NCBI RefSeq assembly: GCF_009712425.2
Contig: NZ_VCJR02000004.1
Span: 62,001 to 126,000 of the forward strand
From: Aquisalinus luteolus
GTDB taxonomy: Bacteria > Pseudomonadota > Alphaproteobacteria > Caulobacterales > Parvularculaceae
Reading direction: 5' to 3'
DNA: 64,000 nucleotides
Every line of letters starts with the position of its first letter. The first letter of the stretch is position 1. The notes below the pieces were generated by a model that ran no database searches, had not been told where the DNA came from, and saw only the letters and a program-made list of their open reading frames with translations. Shown here in pieces: positions 31,022 to 52,095 of the stretch. A program made the translations under genes and the position numbers.

Positions 31022-31147
31022 CTCTCTCAACCCTGACCGGTCTTCATCTCGCGTTATACCGCGCAATTATTGCGCTATTGTTACAAGATTGAAGTTTTCT
31101 TCCACCTCAGCGGCTTCAAATCCTGCGTGTTTACCCCTATATCAAGT

Positions 31148-31467
31148 AGTGCCGGGCAACCGGCTATGGCGATAAAAGGCGTTCATAATAAGCGGATCGG
31201 ACCCGGGGGCGGTACCCGGCGGCTCCACCAGAGGACCTGATAGCTGAGCAAAATCAGTCACTTCGGGTCTTGCGGCGGGGCCGAAATAGGATCGACGAAC
31301 GTGTAAAGGCTCTGCTTTCGCCCGGATGGCTTCCGTTATTGGGCCACTATTATAGTTGCAAATGACAACTACGATGAAGAGTTCGCACTCGCAGCGTAAT
31401 GCAGCGCGTGTAACTCGCTTTTAAAAGCCCCACGCCTCTTATCAAGGCCTGGGCGGGGTTTCCCGGC
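31148..31467 (+). ncRNA. ssrA: Circularly permuted two-piece tmRNA
   Basis: The gene has alphaproteobacterial permuted order. The acceptor piece comes first and ends with CGGCTCC-ACCA at 31220-31230. A 46-bp spacer (31231-31276) follows, then the coding piece starting GGGGCCG at 31277. The two 7-mers pair into the acceptor stem with a G-U at the third position, the alanine identity element. The resume frame at 31358-31399 encodes the tag ANDNYDEEFALAA followed by TAA. GAACG after the 5' end pairs with CGTTC near 31180 (helix 2). A stem CCCCACGCC / GGCGGGG follows the tag. Outer ends (about 31148 and 31467) are estimates. Rescues stalled ribosomes with SmpB. Confidence 0.93.
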
Positions 31468-31895
31468 GCACCTGGCAACAGAAGCGTCGGACTTAACTTT
31501 CCCTCCAGATACTCCTTGAATATCCAACGGGCCGAGAGCCAGTAGGTGCGCCTTTTCATAAGCTTAGCGGGCCACAGGCCCGCTGGCACCTGGCAACAGA
31601 AGCGTCGGACTTAACTTTCCCTCCAGATACTCCTTGAATATCCAACGGGCGGAGAGCCAGTAGGTGCGCCTAATCTTATGAGTAGCGGGCCGCAGGCCCG
31701 CGCGCACCTGGCAACAGAAGCGTCGGACTTAATTTCCCTCTAGATACTTCTTGAACATCCAGCACGCTGAGAAACAGTAGGTGCGCCTTTTCATACCACT
31801 AGCGGGCCGCAGGCCCGCGGGCACTCCTTTGTGTCTTGGGTACCGGAAGCGACGAACTTGTTTCTTCTCATCCAGATGCCAAACAAACGCGAAGC
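31468..31895. repeat. Tandem ~118-bp hairpin-ended repeat array downstream of ssrA
   Basis: Three copies start with GCACCTGGCAACAGAAGCG at 31468, 31586 and 31704 (periods 118, 118, 117 bp). Copies 1 and 2 are nearly identical; copy 3 has scattered substitutions and a deletion. Each ends in a GC-rich palindrome, GCGGGCC / GGCCCGC with a 3-base loop (about 31567-31583, 31685-31701, 31802-31818). A decayed fourth copy follows from 31821 to about 31895. The period is not a multiple of three, and reverse-strand frames break in copy 3, so the array is not a protein repeat. It begins right at the inferred 3' end of the tmRNA coding piece. No gene lies between 31468 and 32054. Confidence 0.85.
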
Positions 31896-43340: not shown

Positions 43341-44873
43341 ATGATCGATCATGAAGTCAGAGCCCACCCGTCAAAGGATGAGCTGAAGCGCGAAGACCAG
43401 CTGGCCTGGAAGATGGCCGAGGTTGCCGCCGACCCCGTCGCCATCGATGACGACGTTCAGGACATGATCATCAACCGCATTATCGACAACGCCTCCGTCG
43501 CCATCGCCTCGCTGAACCGCGGGCCGATCAAGACGGCGCGGGCACAGGCCCTGACCCATCCGCGCGAGGTCGGCGCAAGCCTGTTCGGCCTCGGCATCGG
43601 GGCCCACGTCTCCGCCGAATGGGCAGCATGGGCCAATGGCACGGCGGTGCGCGAGCTGGACTATCACGATACTTTCCTTGCCGCCGATTATTCTCACCCC
43701 GGCGACAACATCCCGCCGATCCTCGCCGTCGCCCAGCAGATGGGCAAGGACGGCAACGAGCTGATGCGCGCCATCGCAACGGGCTATGAGATCCAGGTCA
43801 ACCTCGTCAAAGGCATCTGCCTGCACGAGCACAAGATCGACCACATCGCCCATATCGGCCCGTCTGTTGCTGCCGGCCTCGGCACGCTGCTCGGACTTGA
43901 TAAAGAGATCACCTATCAGTCGATCCAGCAGGCGCTGCATTGCACGGTCACGACGCGCCAGTCGCGCAAGGGCGAGATTTCCACCTGGAAAGCCTTTGCC
44001 CCTGCCTATGCCGGCAAGACCGCGATTGAGGCAGTCGACCGCTGCATGCGCGGCGAGGGCGCGCCGAGCCCGATCTATGAAGGCGAGGATTCCATCATCT
44101 CCTTCATCCTCAATGGCCGCACGGCGCGGGACAAGGGCGACAGCCCATACGGCCCGACCTATATCGTGCCGCTGCCAGGCAATGGCGAGGCGAAACGCGC
44201 CATCATGGATACCTACACGAAGGAACATTCCGCCGAGTACCAGTCCCAGGCGCTTATCGATCTCGCCTTCCGCATGGGCAAGAAGATCGACGACTTCGAC
44301 AAGGTCAAGTCAATCGTTCTGCACACGTCTCACCACACCCACTATGTCATCGGCACCGGCTCCGGCGACCCGCAGAAGATGGACCCGAAGGCGAGCCGCG
44401 AAACGCTCGACCACTCGATCATGTATATCTTCGCCGTCGCCCTGCAGGATGGCGAATGGCACCATGTGAAATCCTACGCCCCGGAGCGGGCCCAGCGCGA
44501 GGATACCGTGCGCCTGTGGCACAAGATTTCCACGACCGAAGACCCGGAATGGACGCGCCGCTATCACAGCCATGACCCGAACGAGAAGGCCTTCGGTGCC
44601 CGCGTCGTCATCACCATGCAAGACGGCTCGACCATCGAGGACGAGCTGGGCGTCGCCAATGCCCACCCGTTCGGCGCGCGGCCCTTCGTGCGCGAGCACT
44701 ACATCCAGAAATTCCGCACCCTGACCGACGATATTCTCGAGAAGGAAGAAAGCGAGCGCTTCCTAGACCTCGTCCAGCGCTTGCCGGAGCTGACCGCCGC
44801 CGATGTGCGCGCCCTCAACCCCGCCGCGCCACGTGAGTATCTGGAAACGAATGAATTGAAGGGGATATTCTAG
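43341..44873 (+). CDS. prpD: 2-methylcitrate dehydratase, PrpD type
   Basis: A 510-residue MmgE/PrpD-family enzyme that dehydrates 2-methylcitrate in propionate breakdown. Family features: an all-helical N-terminal part with [29 protein letters not shown] (about residues 83-112), [24 protein letters not shown] (about 145-168), [27 protein letters not shown] and a C-terminal lid. The catalytic iron-sulfur cluster is absent in this family, so an aconitase-like enzyme elsewhere is needed for hydration to 2-methylisocitrate. AGAGGA precedes the ATG. First gene of the operon. Confidence 0.93.
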
Positions 44874-44877
44874 CGCC

Positions 44878-45069
44878 ATGGCAAGGAACAAACCCCGCCC
44901 CATCACCTATGGCATGGCGATCGGCCTGACCTTCGGGCTGCTCGTCCTGCTGGCTATACAGATCATCTGGATTGCCGTGCTCGTGGGCGTGGTCTCCGGT
45001 CTCGTTATCGGGATCAGCCTTCTGGTCAATTACCGGCGGGTCAAGGGGAAGAAAGGACTGAAGCGATGA
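44878..45069 (+). CDS. Small membrane protein 1 in the prp operon
   Basis: A 63-residue protein with a basic head (MARNKPRPITYG), two membrane helices (about 12-30 and 33-52) and a basic tail (RRVKGKKGLKR). It starts 4 bp after prpD and its stop overlaps the next start by 4 bp (ATGA). The segment IIWIAVLVGVVSG resembles EIVWIAIMVVVII of the next protein. Family unknown; tight coupling argues it is a real gene. Confidence 0.72.
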   Translation: MARNKPRPITYGMAIGLTFGLLVLLAIQIIWIAVLVGVVSGLVIGISLLVNYRRVKGKKGLKR

Positions 45070-45230
45070 AACTGTTCGGATTTGCCTTGTTGGCAGCTCT
45101 TATCGTCGGTGCCCTGATCGTCGTACTGGTCGAGATCGTCTGGATCGCGATCATGGTGGTGGTGATCATTGCGCTCGCTGGCGCGATCTTCGCGTTGTGG
45201 AAAGGGCGTATCGCTGGAGGTGATGACTGA
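45066..45230 (+). CDS. Small membrane protein 2 in the prp operon
   Basis: A 54-residue protein that is almost entirely two membrane helices (about residues 3-21 and 24-45) with a short acidic end AGGDD. It overlaps the previous gene by 4 bp and the next by one base (TGATG). The helix-turn IVWIA is shared with protein 1, suggesting an ancient duplication with opposite tail charge (basic in 1, acidic in 2). No recognised function. Confidence 0.68.
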   Translation: MKLFGFALLAALIVGALIVVLVEIVWIAIMVVVIIALAGAIFALWKGRIAGGDD

Positions 45231-45463
45231 TGGCAGACAAGCCGGAAAAACAGACACCCGAGAAACAGGCCATGAACCCGGCAGGCTTTGCGCTCGGTAT
45301 CGGTGTCGGCATATCCATCGGTACATCGCTCGGCGTGGCTCTGGACAATGTCGCCCTTGGGATTTCTCTCGGTGTCGCCATCGGGGCAGGGATTGGTGCC
45401 GCCTTTGCCGTGGCCATGGGCAGTTCAGACAATACGGACAAAACGGATGACGAGGATAAATAA
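45230..45463 (+). CDS. Small glycine-zipper protein 3 in the prp operon
   Basis: A 77-residue protein: a charged Lys/Glu head (about 1-17), a membrane segment with regular glycine repeats (GFALGIGVGISIGTSLGVAL and GISLGVAIGAGIGAAFAVAMG, about residues 19-66), and an acidic tail DNTDKTDDEDK. Glycine zippers usually pack helices into oligomers. It is coupled upstream by a one-base overlap and downstream to prpB by TAATG. Confidence 0.7.
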   Translation: MADKPEKQTPEKQAMNPAGFALGIGVGISIGTSLGVALDNVALGISLGVAIGAGIGAAFAVAMGSSDNTDKTDDEDK

Positions 45464-46374
45464 TGCTCTTTACAAAGAAAACCGCTGAACAGAAGCGCCG
45501 CGATTTTCGCGACCAGCTGGCCGATGGCAAGCTGCACCAGTTTCCGGGTGCCTTTAACCCGCTCTGCGCCCAGCTGATCGAACGCATGGGCTTTGACGGC
45601 GTCTATGTCTCCGGTGCCGTCATGGCTGCCGATCTGTGCCTGCCGGATATCGGCATCGCCAACCAGGAAGAGTTCGTGACACGTGGCAAGCAGATCGCCC
45701 GTGTCACCGACCTGCCGGCCTTCATCGACATCGACACCGGCTTCGGCGAGCCGATGAGTGCGGCCCGCACCATTCGCCTGATGGAAGAGGCGGGCCTCGC
45801 CGGCTGCCATATCGAGGACCAGGTGATGCCGAAACGCTGCGGCCATCTGGATGGCAAGGAGATCGTCGACACCCACACCATGGTCCAGCGTGTGCGCGCC
45901 GCGGCTGATGCGAAGCTCGACCCGAATTTCGTGCTCATCGCCCGCTCCGACGCCCGCGCGGTGGAGGGGCTGGAGGCTTCCATCGACCGGATGAAGGCCT
46001 ATGTCGATGCCGGGGCGGACATGATCTTCCCCGAGGCGATGAAATCCGAAAAGGAATTCGAAGCCGTGCGCGAGGCGCTCGACGTGCCGATTCTCGCCAA
46101 CATGACCGAGTTCGGCAAGAGCCGCCTACTCAACAAGAAAGAGCTCGAAGACCTCGGCTTCAACGTCGTGATCTATCCGGTGACGACGCTGCGCCTCGCC
46201 ATGGGCGAGGTCGAGCGCGGGCTGGACCACATCCTCACCAATGGCGACCAGAACGGCATTCTCGACAGGATGCAGCACCGCAAGGACCTTTACGACCTGT
46301 TGCGTTACGAGGAATATAACCGCTTCGACCAGTCGCTGTATAACTTCGAGGTCGGCGACACACCAATGGATTAA
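45463..46374 (+). CDS. prpB: 2-methylisocitrate lyase
   Basis: A 303-residue TIM-barrel isocitrate-lyase-family enzyme that splits 2-methylisocitrate into pyruvate and succinate. Seen: VYVSGAVMAADLCLPD (about 48-63), FIDIDTGFGEP with metal-binding Asp (about 88-98), the catalytic loop KRCGH with Cys126, and MIFPEAM. The start overlaps the preceding small gene by one base, tying its translation to the chain from prpD. Confidence 0.95.
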   Translation: MLFTKKTAEQKRRDFRDQLADGKLHQFPGAFNPLCAQLIERMGFDGVYVSGAVMAADLCLPDIGIANQEEFVTRGKQIARVTDLPAFIDIDTGFGEPMSAARTIRLMEEAGLAGCHIEDQVMPKRCGHLDGKEIVDTHTMVQRVRAAADAKLDPNFVLIARSDARAVEGLEASIDRMKAYVDAGADMIFPEAMKSEKEFEAVREALDVPILANMTEFGKSRLLNKKELEDLGFNVVIYPVTTLRLAMGEVERGLDHILTNGDQNGILDRMQHRKDLYDLLRYEEYNRFDQSLYNFEVGDTPMD

Positions 46375-46397: not shown

Positions 46398-47063
46398 ATG
46401 ACACTGAAGGTAATCGGCGCGGGATTGGGCCGTACGGGAACGTTTTCGCTTAAGTTCGCGCTGGAAAAGCTGATGGACCAGCCGTGCTATCACATGTTCG
46501 AGCTGATGAAGCGGCCGCAGGACCTGCCGACATGGAAGGCGGCCTTGGAAGGCGAGCCGCACGACTGGTCGGTGCCGTTCGCAGACTATGGCGCAGCCGT
46601 CGATTACCCGGTCGCTTACTTCTGGGAAGAGATCCTCGCCGCCTATCCGGATGCCAAGGTGGTCCTGACCGTGCGCGACCCGGAAAGCTGGTATGAGAGC
46701 GCCAAGAATACGATCTATCAGTTTGAGCCGAACACGGCGGAAAAACTCTCCATCGGCATGCGCTGGCTGTTCAAGCCCAGCCTGCGGACCATGGTGAAGA
46801 CCGGCCTCTATGCCGAGAAGCTGGTCTGGAAGACCCATTTCGAGGATCGCTTCGATGACAAGGATTTCGCGATCTCCGTCTTCGAGAAGCATAACCAGCA
46901 TGTTCGCGACACCGTGCCTGCCGACCGGCTCTTGGAGTTCAATGTGAAGGAGGGCTGGGCCCCGCTCTGCGACTTCCTCGGAACGCCGGTGCCTGACGGC
47001 CCGTTCCCCCATGAGAATGAGCGCGCCGCTTTTGCCGAACGCCGCAAGGAAATGATGGGCTGA
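46398..47063 (+). CDS. Sulfotransferase-family protein
   Basis: A 221-residue protein of the short sulfotransferase family common in alphaproteobacteria. Seen: the PAPS 5'-phosphosulfate-like loop VIGAGLGRTGTFSLKFALEKL (about residues 5-25), CYHMFELMKRPQDL, and the 3'-phosphate-like VVLTVRDPESWYES (about 88-101). A sulfated substrate is unknown, and some members have lost transferase activity. GGAGGGGAGAGG lies upstream; the stop overlaps the following ABM gene by one base. It sits inside the prp operon, between prpB and prpC. Confidence 0.82.
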   Translation: MTLKVIGAGLGRTGTFSLKFALEKLMDQPCYHMFELMKRPQDLPTWKAALEGEPHDWSVPFADYGAAVDYPVAYFWEEILAAYPDAKVVLTVRDPESWYESAKNTIYQFEPNTAEKLSIGMRWLFKPSLRTMVKTGLYAEKLVWKTHFEDRFDDKDFAISVFEKHNQHVRDTVPADRLLEFNVKEGWAPLCDFLGTPVPDGPFPHENERAAFAERRKEMMG

Positions 47064-47410
47064 TGACCAGTTTCGCCGAGGGGCTCACGCCGCCCTATTA
47101 CGCGGTAATCTTCGCCAACCAGCTGCGCGAGCCTGCGCCGGGCTATGAGGCGATGGCAGATCGCATGGCGGCGCTGGCCGAGACCATGCCTGGCTATCTT
47201 GGCATTGAATCGACACGCAATTCGGAGGGTTTCGGTATCACTGTCTCTTACTGGGAAAGCGAGAGCGCAATCGTGAACTGGAAAAAGCAGTCGGATCACC
47301 TGGCGGCACAAGACAAGGGCATACGTGAATGGTATGCCCACTATCAATTGCGCGTGGCGCGGATCGAGCGGGCCTATTCCGGCCCCGATGGCCGCCCCGC
47401 GGTGAAATAA
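47063..47410 (+). CDS. Antibiotic-biosynthesis-monooxygenase (ABM) domain protein
   Basis: A 115-residue ferredoxin-like dimeric alpha/beta barrel protein. The pattern ANQLREPAPGYEAMADRMAALAETMPGYLGIESTRNSEGFGITVSYWESESAI.NWKKQ is characteristic of the ABM family, which includes monooxygenases and haem-degrading or stress proteins. It is coupled to the sulfotransferase-like gene by TGATG. Substrate unknown; its conserved presence in this operon would have to be checked in relatives. Confidence 0.82.
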   Translation: MTSFAEGLTPPYYAVIFANQLREPAPGYEAMADRMAALAETMPGYLGIESTRNSEGFGITVSYWESESAIVNWKKQSDHLAAQDKGIREWYAHYQLRVARIERAYSGPDGRPAVK

Positions 47411-47431
47411 GATAATAGTACGGAGGAAATG

Positions 47432-48565
47432 ATGAGCGACGATATAAAATACGGCCTTGCCGGTGTCGTGACCGACGATACCGCGATCTCAAAGGTGATG
47501 CCGGAAACGAACTCGCTGACCTATCGCGGCTATGCTGTGCAGGACCTGGCAACGCAAGCCGATTTCGAGGAAACCGCCTATGTGATCTGGAATGGCGACC
47601 TGCCGAGCGCGAGCGAGCTGGAGGAGTTCAGGAAGCGTGAGAAAAGCGAGCGCGGCCTGTCGGATGATTTGCTCTCCGTCATTGCGCGGTATAATCGCGA
47701 TGCGCATCCGATGGACACGGTGCGCACCTCGGTCAGCTTCCTCGGCCAGGAAGATCCGACCGCCGATGATTCATCGCCGGAAGGGCTTTACGACAAGTCG
47801 ATCCGCATGATGGCGAAGATCCCGGAAATGGTTGCGGCGGACTATCGCCATCGCAAGGGCGAGAAACCGATCGGGCCTGACGAGGGCTTGAGCTTCTCGG
47901 AGAACTTCTTCCACATGTGTTTCGGCGAGGTGCCGGCACCGGAAGTGATCAAGTGTTTCGATATTTCCATGACGCTGTATGCGGAGCATTCTTTCAATGC
48001 CTCGACCTTCGCCGCGCGGGTCATCGCCTCGACGACGTCCGATATCTATTCTGCCGTCACCGGCGCCATCGGCGCACTGAAAGGCCCGCTCCATGGCGGC
48101 GCGAACGAAGCGGTCATGCACATGCTGAAGGAAGTCGGCGAGCCGGAGAACGCCCGCGAGTGGATGCTGACGGCCCTGAAAGAGAAGCGCAAGATCATGG
48201 GCTTTGGCCACCGGGTCTATCGCTCGGGCGACTCACGCGTGCCGACCATGACCGACGCGTTCAAGGCCATGGTCGATATTATCGACACGGACGAGGCGCG
48301 CAAATACTGGGAGATGTCGCGCATTCTCGACGACACCATGGTCGAGGCGAAGGGTATCTATCCCAATCTCGATTTCCCAGCGGGGCCTGCCTATTACCTT
48401 ATGGGTTTCGATATCCCGATGTTCACGCCGCTGTTCGTCATGTCACGGATCACCGGCTGGACGGCGCATATCGCCGAGCAGCTGGACGAAAACAAGCTGA
48501 TCCGTCCGCTGTCGAACTATACCGGTCCTGACGAGCGGTCGGTCACGCCGATCGGCGAGCGCTGA
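47432..48565 (+). CDS. prpC: 2-methylcitrate synthase
   Basis: A 377-residue citrate-synthase-family enzyme that condenses propionyl-CoA with oxaloacetate. Seen: YRGYAVQDLATQADFEETAY (about residues 30-49), YAEHSFNASTFAARVIAST with the first catalytic His, LHGGANEAVMHML with the second, and IMGFGHRVYRSGDSRVP with Asp nearby in the C-terminal helix (the YKSG motif is YRSG here). The type with short N-terminus and these motifs is the 2-methylcitrate-synthase group. Start 47432 is preferred: GGAGG ends 6 bp upstream; the ATG at 47429 is too close. Confidence 0.93.
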   Translation: MSDDIKYGLAGVVTDDTAISKVMPETNSLTYRGYAVQDLATQADFEETAYVIWNGDLPSASELEEFRKREKSERGLSDDLLSVIARYNRDAHPMDTVRTSVSFLGQEDPTADDSSPEGLYDKSIRMMAKIPEMVAADYRHRKGEKPIGPDEGLSFSENFFHMCFGEVPAPEVIKCFDISMTLYAEHSFNASTFAARVIASTTSDIYSAVTGAIGALKGPLHGGANEAVMHMLKEVGEPENAREWMLTALKEKRKIMGFGHRVYRSGDSRVPTMTDAFKAMVDIIDTDEARKYWEMSRILDDTMVEAKGIYPNLDFPAGPAYYLMGFDIPMFTPLFVMSRITGWTAHIAEQLDENKLIRPLSNYTGPDERSVTPIGER

Positions 48566-51384: not shown

Positions 51385-52095
51385 TCAGTGGAAACGGATG
51401 GAGACGGTGACGGTTCCGATGATGTCGGTCAGCTTGTCGACATACAGTGTCTCGTGGTTCGGATCGCTGGAATAGGGCTCGAGCCGCGACGGCTCCTTGC
51501 GCCAGCGCCGAAGCAGGGGGGTGCCGTCCTCGCGCCGGATCAGCACTATGTCGCTGTCTGCGGGAACGCGGTGATTATAGTCGATGACGACCAGCGTGTT
51601 GGACGGGAAGGCGAGGTTCATTGCCGCGTCAGCCGAGAAGAAGCCGAACATGCGCTCACTGCCCGACGTGACCGGGATGTAGTCGGTCGCGATCTCATGC
51701 GGGTCGAACGCCTCGTGATCCAGCATCTGCACAGTCTGGGAATAGGGGATGACCGGCACATGGTGGATCGCCCGGCGCAGATATGCGGCGGCGGGGTGCT
51801 TGTCCCGTTCGGCCATGGAACGCTCGCCGGAGGCAAGCCAGCCGAGATTGACGTGCAGTGCCTCTGCGAGCTTTGCCAGCATCAGCTGGCGCGGGTCGTG
51901 AACGCCGGTTTCCCAGTTCGCGACGGTCGGCTGGGAAACGCCCAGGCGCAGGGCGAGATCGGCCTGGTTCAGGCCGATTGTCTTGCGGGCGGATTTGATT
52001 CTCGCCCCGATTGACCCCACATCCCCTTCAGCTGCCGGTTCGGGCGCATTCTGGTTGGGATAGGCATATCTCGCCATGATCTTCATTCTGTCCAT
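51385..52095 (-). CDS. XRE/S24-type repressor with apparently inactive peptidase dyad
   Basis: A 236-residue regulator. An N-terminal disordered head precedes a Cro/CI helix-turn-helix (GARIKSARKTIGLNQADLALRLGVSQPTVANWETG, about 30-64) and a C-terminal LexA/CI-like (S24) domain from about residue 110 (VIPYSQTVQM). Where active S24 proteins have G-D-S-M, this has A-D-A-A-M (about 161-165), and the Lys position reads LLRRW, so self-cleavage is probably lost. Possible starts: 52095, 52086 or 52077. Operator-like repeats lie in the AT-rich gap upstream. Confidence 0.82.
   Translation of the reverse strand: MDRMKIMARYAYPNQNAPEPAAEGDVGSIGARIKSARKTIGLNQADLALRLGVSQPTVANWETGVHDPRQLMLAKLAEALHVNLGWLASGERSMAERDKHPAAAYLRRAIHHVPVIPYSQTVQMLDHEAFDPHEIATDYIPVTSGSERMFGFFSADAAMNLAFPSNTLVVIDYNHRVPADSDIVLIRREDGTPLLRRWRKEPSRLEPYSSDPNHETLYVDKLTDIIGTVTVSIRFH

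Follow-up and report, generated by a model that had tools for sequence, protein, structure and literature searches.

Known glycine-zipper proteins and the prpD-prpB locus

Tiny membrane proteins encoded together with enzymes, such as CydX and KdpF, serve membrane complexes. Glycine-zipper segments occur in the Pfam families Gly-zipper_Omp (PF13488) and Gly-zipper_YMGG (PF13441), and short glycine-periodic proteins with no other domain are annotated as "glycine zipper family protein", a phrase that occurs in at least two papers. Of the described glycine-zipper proteins encountered for the order, the Cdz bacteriocins of Caulobacter crescentus come closest; CdzC and CdzD are small glycine zippers with a charged or polar C-terminus, which have a leader peptide and need the CdzAB exporter encoded adjacent to them (PMC5380434).

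P3, the last of three small genes between prpD and prpB in Aquisalinus luteolus, resembles the proteins annotated as "glycine zipper family protein" in being short, glycine-periodic and devoid of other domains, but it reaches no curated cut-off. Against the curated Pfam and NCBIfam models none of P1, P2 and P3 scored above cut-off, the best match of P3 being DUF3482 (19.8 bits versus 29.2), and the matches of 24 P3 relatives are weak and scattered (Pfam, at most 4/24 per model, best E 8.6e-05; NCBIfam, at most 7/24 per model, best E 0.00043). The P3 family has glycine-zipper segments in common with Gly-zipper_Omp and Gly-zipper_YMGG, which match weakly 3/24 and 2/24 members only, and P3 has no match at E 1. 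Unlike CydX and KdpF, members of the P3 family have soluble enzymes as neighbors and their host operon varies.

The window, by which we mean the whole 64,000-nt stretch analyzed (genome G000), carries on its forward strand prpD at 43341–44873 (MmgE/PrpD; Pfam MmgE_PrpD N- and C-terminal domains; NCBIfam NF042438, 859 bits, under its cut-off of 950) and the methylisocitrate lyase gene prpB at 45463–46374 (TIGR02317, 407 bits, cut-off 354). Between them, three open reading frames follow one another on the same strand. P1 (63 residues, 44878–45069) begins 4 nt past the prpD stop, P2 (54 residues, 45066–45230) overlaps P1 by ATGA at 45066–45069, and P3 (77 residues, 45230–45463), a free-standing glycine-zipper helical hairpin by profile and structure prediction, is joined to P2 by TGATG at 45228–45232 and to prpB by TAATG at 45461–45465. 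The sequence-only reading had described three proteins of just these lengths between prpD and prpB, and its coordinates and overlaps proved exact. After prpB, a Sulfotransfer_4 protein, an ABM monooxygenase-like protein and prpC are encoded on the same strand (46398–48565, domain matches); the stop of the Sulfotransfer_4 gene and the start of the ABM-like gene share position 47063. Elsewhere, the window contains an alphaproteobacterial tmRNA at 31111–31493, which the permuted-tmRNA Rfam model matches too, and an HTH_3 regulator at 51388–52095 that also matches a phage CI repressor HTH model.

Aquisalinus flavus (G004) served as the comparison genome for the trio, and its prpD-prpB interval is 589 nt long, as in the window genome. 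P1, P2 and P3 are genuine genes under purifying selection, with dN/dS of about 0.1–0.2. Substitutions at codon positions 1/2/3 number 6/4/23 in P1 (dN/dS 0.088/0.608, 0.14), 9/2/19 in P2 (0.108/0.628, 0.17) and 7/9/34 in the long form of P3 (0.112/1.010, 0.11); pooled, third codon positions account for 76 of the 113 differences (binomial p 2e-13). The low dN/dS together with this third-position excess thus marks the trio as real genes, and purifying selection speaks for their translation. In this comparison prpB (0.013/0.405) and prpC (0.022/0.464) are under tighter constraint than the trio. Neutral passengers, that is, short ORFs arising in a variable intergenic slot, would agree with a slot content that varies by genome and with P1 and P2 coming from two species only; the substitution figures of all three genes already disfavor this explanation, P3 relatives occur in several phyla and in archaea, and we regard it as very improbable.

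The trio had also been called a conserved-looking chain, which holds for part of it. The ATGA of P1/P2, the TAATG of P3/prpB and the 4-nt prpD-P1 spacing are preserved in A. flavus (two species), as is the AAAGGA located 8 nt ahead of the P2 start. The first ATG of P3, however, reads ACG in A. flavus, and the TGATG overlap of P2 and P3 is therefore not conserved. The Shine-Dalgarno-like GGAGGTGAT at 45216–45224 of the forward strand, 5 nt upstream of the long-form start of P3, is degraded there as well. The changes in this ATG and in GGAGGTGAT suggest that P3 may start at Met15 in both species, giving a short form of 63 residues (45272–45463, forward strand); Met15 (window 45272) is the only ATG start of P3 common to the two, and several P3 relatives from the prp slot start at its alignment column.

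A family of glycine-zipper hairpin microproteins

AlphaFold predicts for P3 two helices (residues 17–38 and 41–66) separated by a turn at Asp39-Asn40 and followed by a charged tail, with pLDDT block means of 88–92 across residues 21–50 and a pTM of 0.47. Glycines 27, 31, 35, 48 and 52 (P3 numbering) are invariant in 24 sequences, and Asn40 is found in 90% or more. The five invariant glycines, the predicted hairpin and the profile membership described below bear out the earlier description of P3 as a glycine zipper, and hydropathy that of all three proteins as membrane-type, the helices of P3 being modestly hydrophobic (19-residue windows reach 2.04). In the membrane, the P3-family hairpin would form a tightly packed pair of helices and associate via their glycine faces. 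Among solved structures no match is better than E 0.079 by sequence or 3.6 by fold, and the predicted P3 hairpin has no significant PDB match.

Relatives of P3 were classed by the genes beside them, and a profile built from one class was scored on the others. Against a profile of fadA/fadB members alone, P3 reaches 73.6 bits (best of 200 shuffles 27.1, glycine-fixed 39.0), and against the trxB-member profile 66.0 bits (200 shuffles at most 16.0, glycine-fixed 46.1). The cross-class test used 9 prp, 10 gcv, 29 fad and 24 trx members, a subset of those found; here the profile of the 29 fadA/fadB members gave mean scores of 71, 58 and 61 bits for the prp, gcv and trxB classes, compared with 2, −2 and −2 bits for core shuffles and 15, 14 and 11 bits for shuffles with the glycines kept. 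Every one of the 9 prp, 10 gcv and 24 trxB members outscores all 200 of its own shuffles, glycine-fixed ones included, and the trxB-member profile agrees. We therefore place P3 in a large, widespread and unnamed family whose members are free-standing glycine-zipper hairpin microproteins. What the shuffles speak against is a match by composition alone; they do not bear on convergence, of which short hydrophobic proteins are capable.

A profile of 16 P3 relatives (A1) detected members in 29 of the 62 family genomes (E 1e-4), 95 of 249 order genomes (E 1e-6) and 11 of 289 genomes of the class (E 1e-4), 8 of them from other orders. In a contig scan, where E-values relate to candidate stretches only, the best 80 of 136 confirmed matches came from Caulobacter, Brevundimonas, Henriciella, Lysobacter, Idiomarina and relatives, and from Bacteroidota, Paenibacillus, Microbacterium, Streptomyces, Chloroflexi and haloarchaea. 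A viral origin of the family was rejected, with none of 134 pattern-matching stretches in viral contigs confirmed.

An antibacterial peptide akin to Cdz or the class IIb bacteriocins, with P1 and P2 as partner or immunity proteins, would fit the Caulobacter system, in which small glycine-zipper proteins are accompanied by an immunity protein that is a small membrane protein (PMC5380434); PF25184 (YxzE-like putative bacteriocin) also matches 1/24 P3 relatives weakly (E 0.001). However, where CdzC and CdzD have a leader and an adjacent exporter, neither was found at the P3 locus: the sequence of P3 has no leader ending in G[G/A/S] ahead of the zipper, a criterion drawn from the Cdz system (PMC5380434), and no ABC exporter or membrane-fusion domain was present in 26 window ORFs scanned from 31.8 to 59.9 kb (ORFs of 200 aa or more, shorter ones within 40–50 kb, and a minority of the overlapping antisense ORFs). 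With the genes placed in housekeeping operons, a bacteriocin is highly unlikely.

Small holin-like membrane permeabilizers are scarcely credible. P1 matches PF07332 (Phage_holin_3_6) weakly, at 16 bits and E 0.013, and misses the curated cut-off of 28.4. Matches to PHROGs are weak and scattered; P3 hits a tape measure protein (E 0.003) and one of the 24 relatives a holin (E 0.003), while no P3 relative was confirmed in viral contigs and no lysis gene was recognized among the nearby ORFs scanned.

Host operons and gene junctions

The trio had been proposed as a membrane complex tied to propionate metabolism, with its absence from related prp operons named as one half of a refuting condition, the other half being no translation in ribosome profiling. 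We found prpD in 35 of 61 related genomes (E 1e-80), and 33 prpD-prpB intervals were readable, comprising the window and the fetched regions (33 fetched, one piece being too short). Their length ranges from −1 (two genomes) to 2062 nt, and their content differs among the 33 family genomes (window and L064–L096), with SnoaL-like, 4HBT thioesterase and glyoxalase/VOC genes, a MazE-type antitoxin with a PIN protein, an alpha/beta hydrolase and YetF/DUF421 proteins, identities that were Pfam-confirmed on single examples. The complete trio occupies two of the intervals, those of the window genome and A. flavus, and is missing from the other 31, so that methylcitrate operons do not regularly contain it; elsewhere in the searched genomes no confident relative of P1 or P2 turned up. 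A P3-like protein is found in the prp slot in all six genomes of the genus (at least one each) and in five of another genus. Against a propionate-linked complex, relatives of P3 are hosted by operons for beta-oxidation-type enzymes or glycine cleavage, or adjoin the thioredoxin reductase gene. As the P3 family is at home in more than one kind of core-metabolism operon, a machine specific to propionate is an improbable reading of the trio.

In 102 order genomes, 108 family loci were classed by the marker genes found up to 500 nt away, and different lineages proved to have different host operons. Thirty-four loci (3 families, 11 genera) lie between a fadA-like thiolase and a fadB-like gene, and 18 follow gcvH, 17 of them with gcvPA next. 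Another 27, in Caulobacteraceae-type genomes (one family, 3 genera), are divergent from trxB and not inside an operon; a member in this position in Caulobacter vibrioides DSM 9893 (L162 / L284, G439) makes the function testable in a model species. The prp slot accounts for 10 of the 108, with three between prpD and prpB, four ahead of prpB and three placed by reading (L110, zipper then prpB at a contig end; L097 and L101, more than 500 nt from a marker). The remaining 19 comprise 18 loci with no marker within 500 nt and one with a thiolase on one side only. Second tandem copies are excluded from the 108; five further family matches were read separately, among which only L356, a second copy in G071, lies in a host operon and brings the prp slot to 11 genomes. 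Outside the order, members lie between sufB and sufC in two genomes (L129, L130), and in an alphaproteobacterial MAG (L153) a member follows a sufB-like gene by 50 nt (by eye).

Marker identities were checked on one example each. The fadA-like gene matched acetyl-CoA C-acetyltransferase (NF006090, 708 bits, cut-off 514), with the FadA models proper under cut-off, and the fadB-like gene has enoyl-CoA hydratase and 3-hydroxyacyl-CoA dehydrogenase domains; GcvH, GcvPA, thioredoxin reductase, SufB and SufC were confirmed. The ORF caller, trained on prp genes, overlooked or truncated some ORFs whose codon usage differs, which makes unlabeled neighbors uncertain.

In these operons the zipper gene is closely packed. 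Both neighbors were called at 31 of the 34 fadA/fadB loci (a second zipper being the downstream neighbor in two), and there the upstream gap is −1 to 9 nt in 27 of 31 and the downstream gap −20 to 39 nt in 29 of 31. After gcvH, the zipper gene starts with a 4-nt overlap in 10 of 14 called cases.

The same junctions are often closed. Zipper-free fadA/fadB junctions were checked in 21 genomes, 16 without a P3-like match and five with a member in prp or gcv; where fadB was in view the gap is 14–95 nt in 17 of 20 genomes, and 527–1047 nt with other genes in the other three. In the window genome and A. flavus, fadA/fadB is closed at 21 nt and gcvH/gcvPA at 27 nt. Among 28 genomes without a detected member at gcvH/gcvPA, the gap is 0–50 nt in 20; the other eight include two junctions with divergent zipper-like hairpins that had escaped detection (G010, G028), two with VOC-like genes (by eye) and four of 69–142 nt that had no small ORF among those examined. 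Since some fadA/fadB and gcvH/gcvPA junctions hold non-zipper genes, cargo of several kinds can be accommodated there, the zipper being one of them. By eye, the cargo of zipper-free junctions was DUF559-like at L305 and L323 and VOC-like at L331 and L344.

The idea of one host operon per genome was rejected, as both gcv and prp copies occur in G071, and fad and gcv copies in G453. Within the family, 16 genomes have a gcv member, 11 a prp member and one has both, a distribution of little weight because the genomes are related by descent; for members of one genus, too, genome counts are therefore not independent events.

We favor, at a probability of roughly 60%, the reading that P3-family genes encode membrane microproteins riding in core enzyme operons, with a role that is not propionate-specific. 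The zipper gene would be a tenant between consecutive core-operon genes (fadA-like/fadB-like, gcvH/gcvPA, prpD/prpB), with frames that overlap or nearly touch, and its protein would be produced together with the enzymes of the operon that hosts the gene, probably by coupled translation. A membrane role not tied to propionate is suggested because the host operon varies while the protein stays recognizable, and because the enzymes of many relatives do without it. The Caulobacteraceae-type members count against such tenancy, being divergent from trxB rather than in an operon, and recurrence in three enzyme operons may itself signal a link to those enzymes.

Such a link is the core of the main rival, membrane docking or a metabolon anchor, in which the hairpin would bring soluble complexes (FadA/FadB-like, GcvH/GcvP, PrpD/PrpB) to the inner membrane, with members adapted to their operon. 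The recurrent position between genes of interacting or sequential enzymes in three operons fits this rival, as do charged tails lying outside the P3-family hairpin. On the other hand, the same enzymes have a closed junction in many genomes, the window genome and A. flavus included, and among the loci listed, members also lie at unrelated places in other bacteria and haloarchaea; we consider docking unlikely. More doubtful is a transferable membrane-targeting module, a hairpin of ~60 residues that, translated between two cytosolic enzymes, would hold the translating polysome or the completed enzyme complex at the inner membrane. This one module would have entered beta-oxidation-type, glycine-cleavage and methylcitrate operons and, beyond the order, SufB/SufC operons.

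With the reading that these microproteins ride in core operons, a two-species curiosity becomes an order-wide pattern, an unnamed microprotein family at core-enzyme gene junctions of several operons. It would be either an overlooked membrane partner of soluble central-metabolism enzymes or a membrane microprotein that exploits core operons for expression. Among the literature matches listed (full text, with few subscription papers), none describes the P3 family or places proteins of this kind in a prp, gcv or fad operon, and an operon-junction habit of glycine-zipper proteins is likewise absent.

P1, P2 and chains of zipper genes

P1 has one long hydrophobic stretch at about residues 12–50 with basic ends, and its AlphaFold model, from a two-sequence alignment, is a single helix (residues 11–62). 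P2 is hydrophobic over about residues 4–45, with Glu23 and Trp26 mid-stretch. The sequence-only reading had given the two a common WIA motif and tails of opposite charge. The WIA match is present and weak, as 9 and 28 of 5000 P2-core shuffles score at least as high (two species), and duplication of one from the other is suggestive only; opposite charges are not clear, P1 having 10 K/R and no D/E and P2 three of each over the whole protein. Strong matches to P1 were confined to G000 and G004 among 61 relatives and 249 order genomes (others no better than 3e-4), and those to P2 to the same two genomes among 62 family genomes (next E 0.009).

P1 may be a degenerate, borderline relative of the glycine zippers. 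It scores 11.8 bits against the fadA/fadB profile and 14.7 against the trxB profile, above all full shuffles, and 10/200 and 2/200 glycine-fixed shuffles, respectively, score as well. Against the zipper profile, P1 with 14.9 bits is outscored by zippers, whether clear or divergent, and exceeds the remaining hydrophobic background by a small margin (next 13.7), while P2, at −3.7 bits, lies inside that background and failed as a member. P1 and P2 would be lineage-specific membrane companions, with P1 perhaps an old duplicate of a zipper gene; duplication of zipper genes followed by drift could plausibly have given rise to P1, and perhaps to P2.

Chains of zipper genes occur elsewhere. Two zipper-like proteins are encoded in tandem in gcv operons (L108, L120), and in G453 gcvH, two zipper-like ORFs and gcvPA are consecutive, the last two junctions being ATGA overlaps. 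At L156, a hydrophobic 46-residue ORF lies upstream of the zipper. One genus of the family has a gene cluster (L022, L357, L358, L303) that combines zipper-like microproteins with small hydrophobic proteins and, by eye, a small HTH protein.
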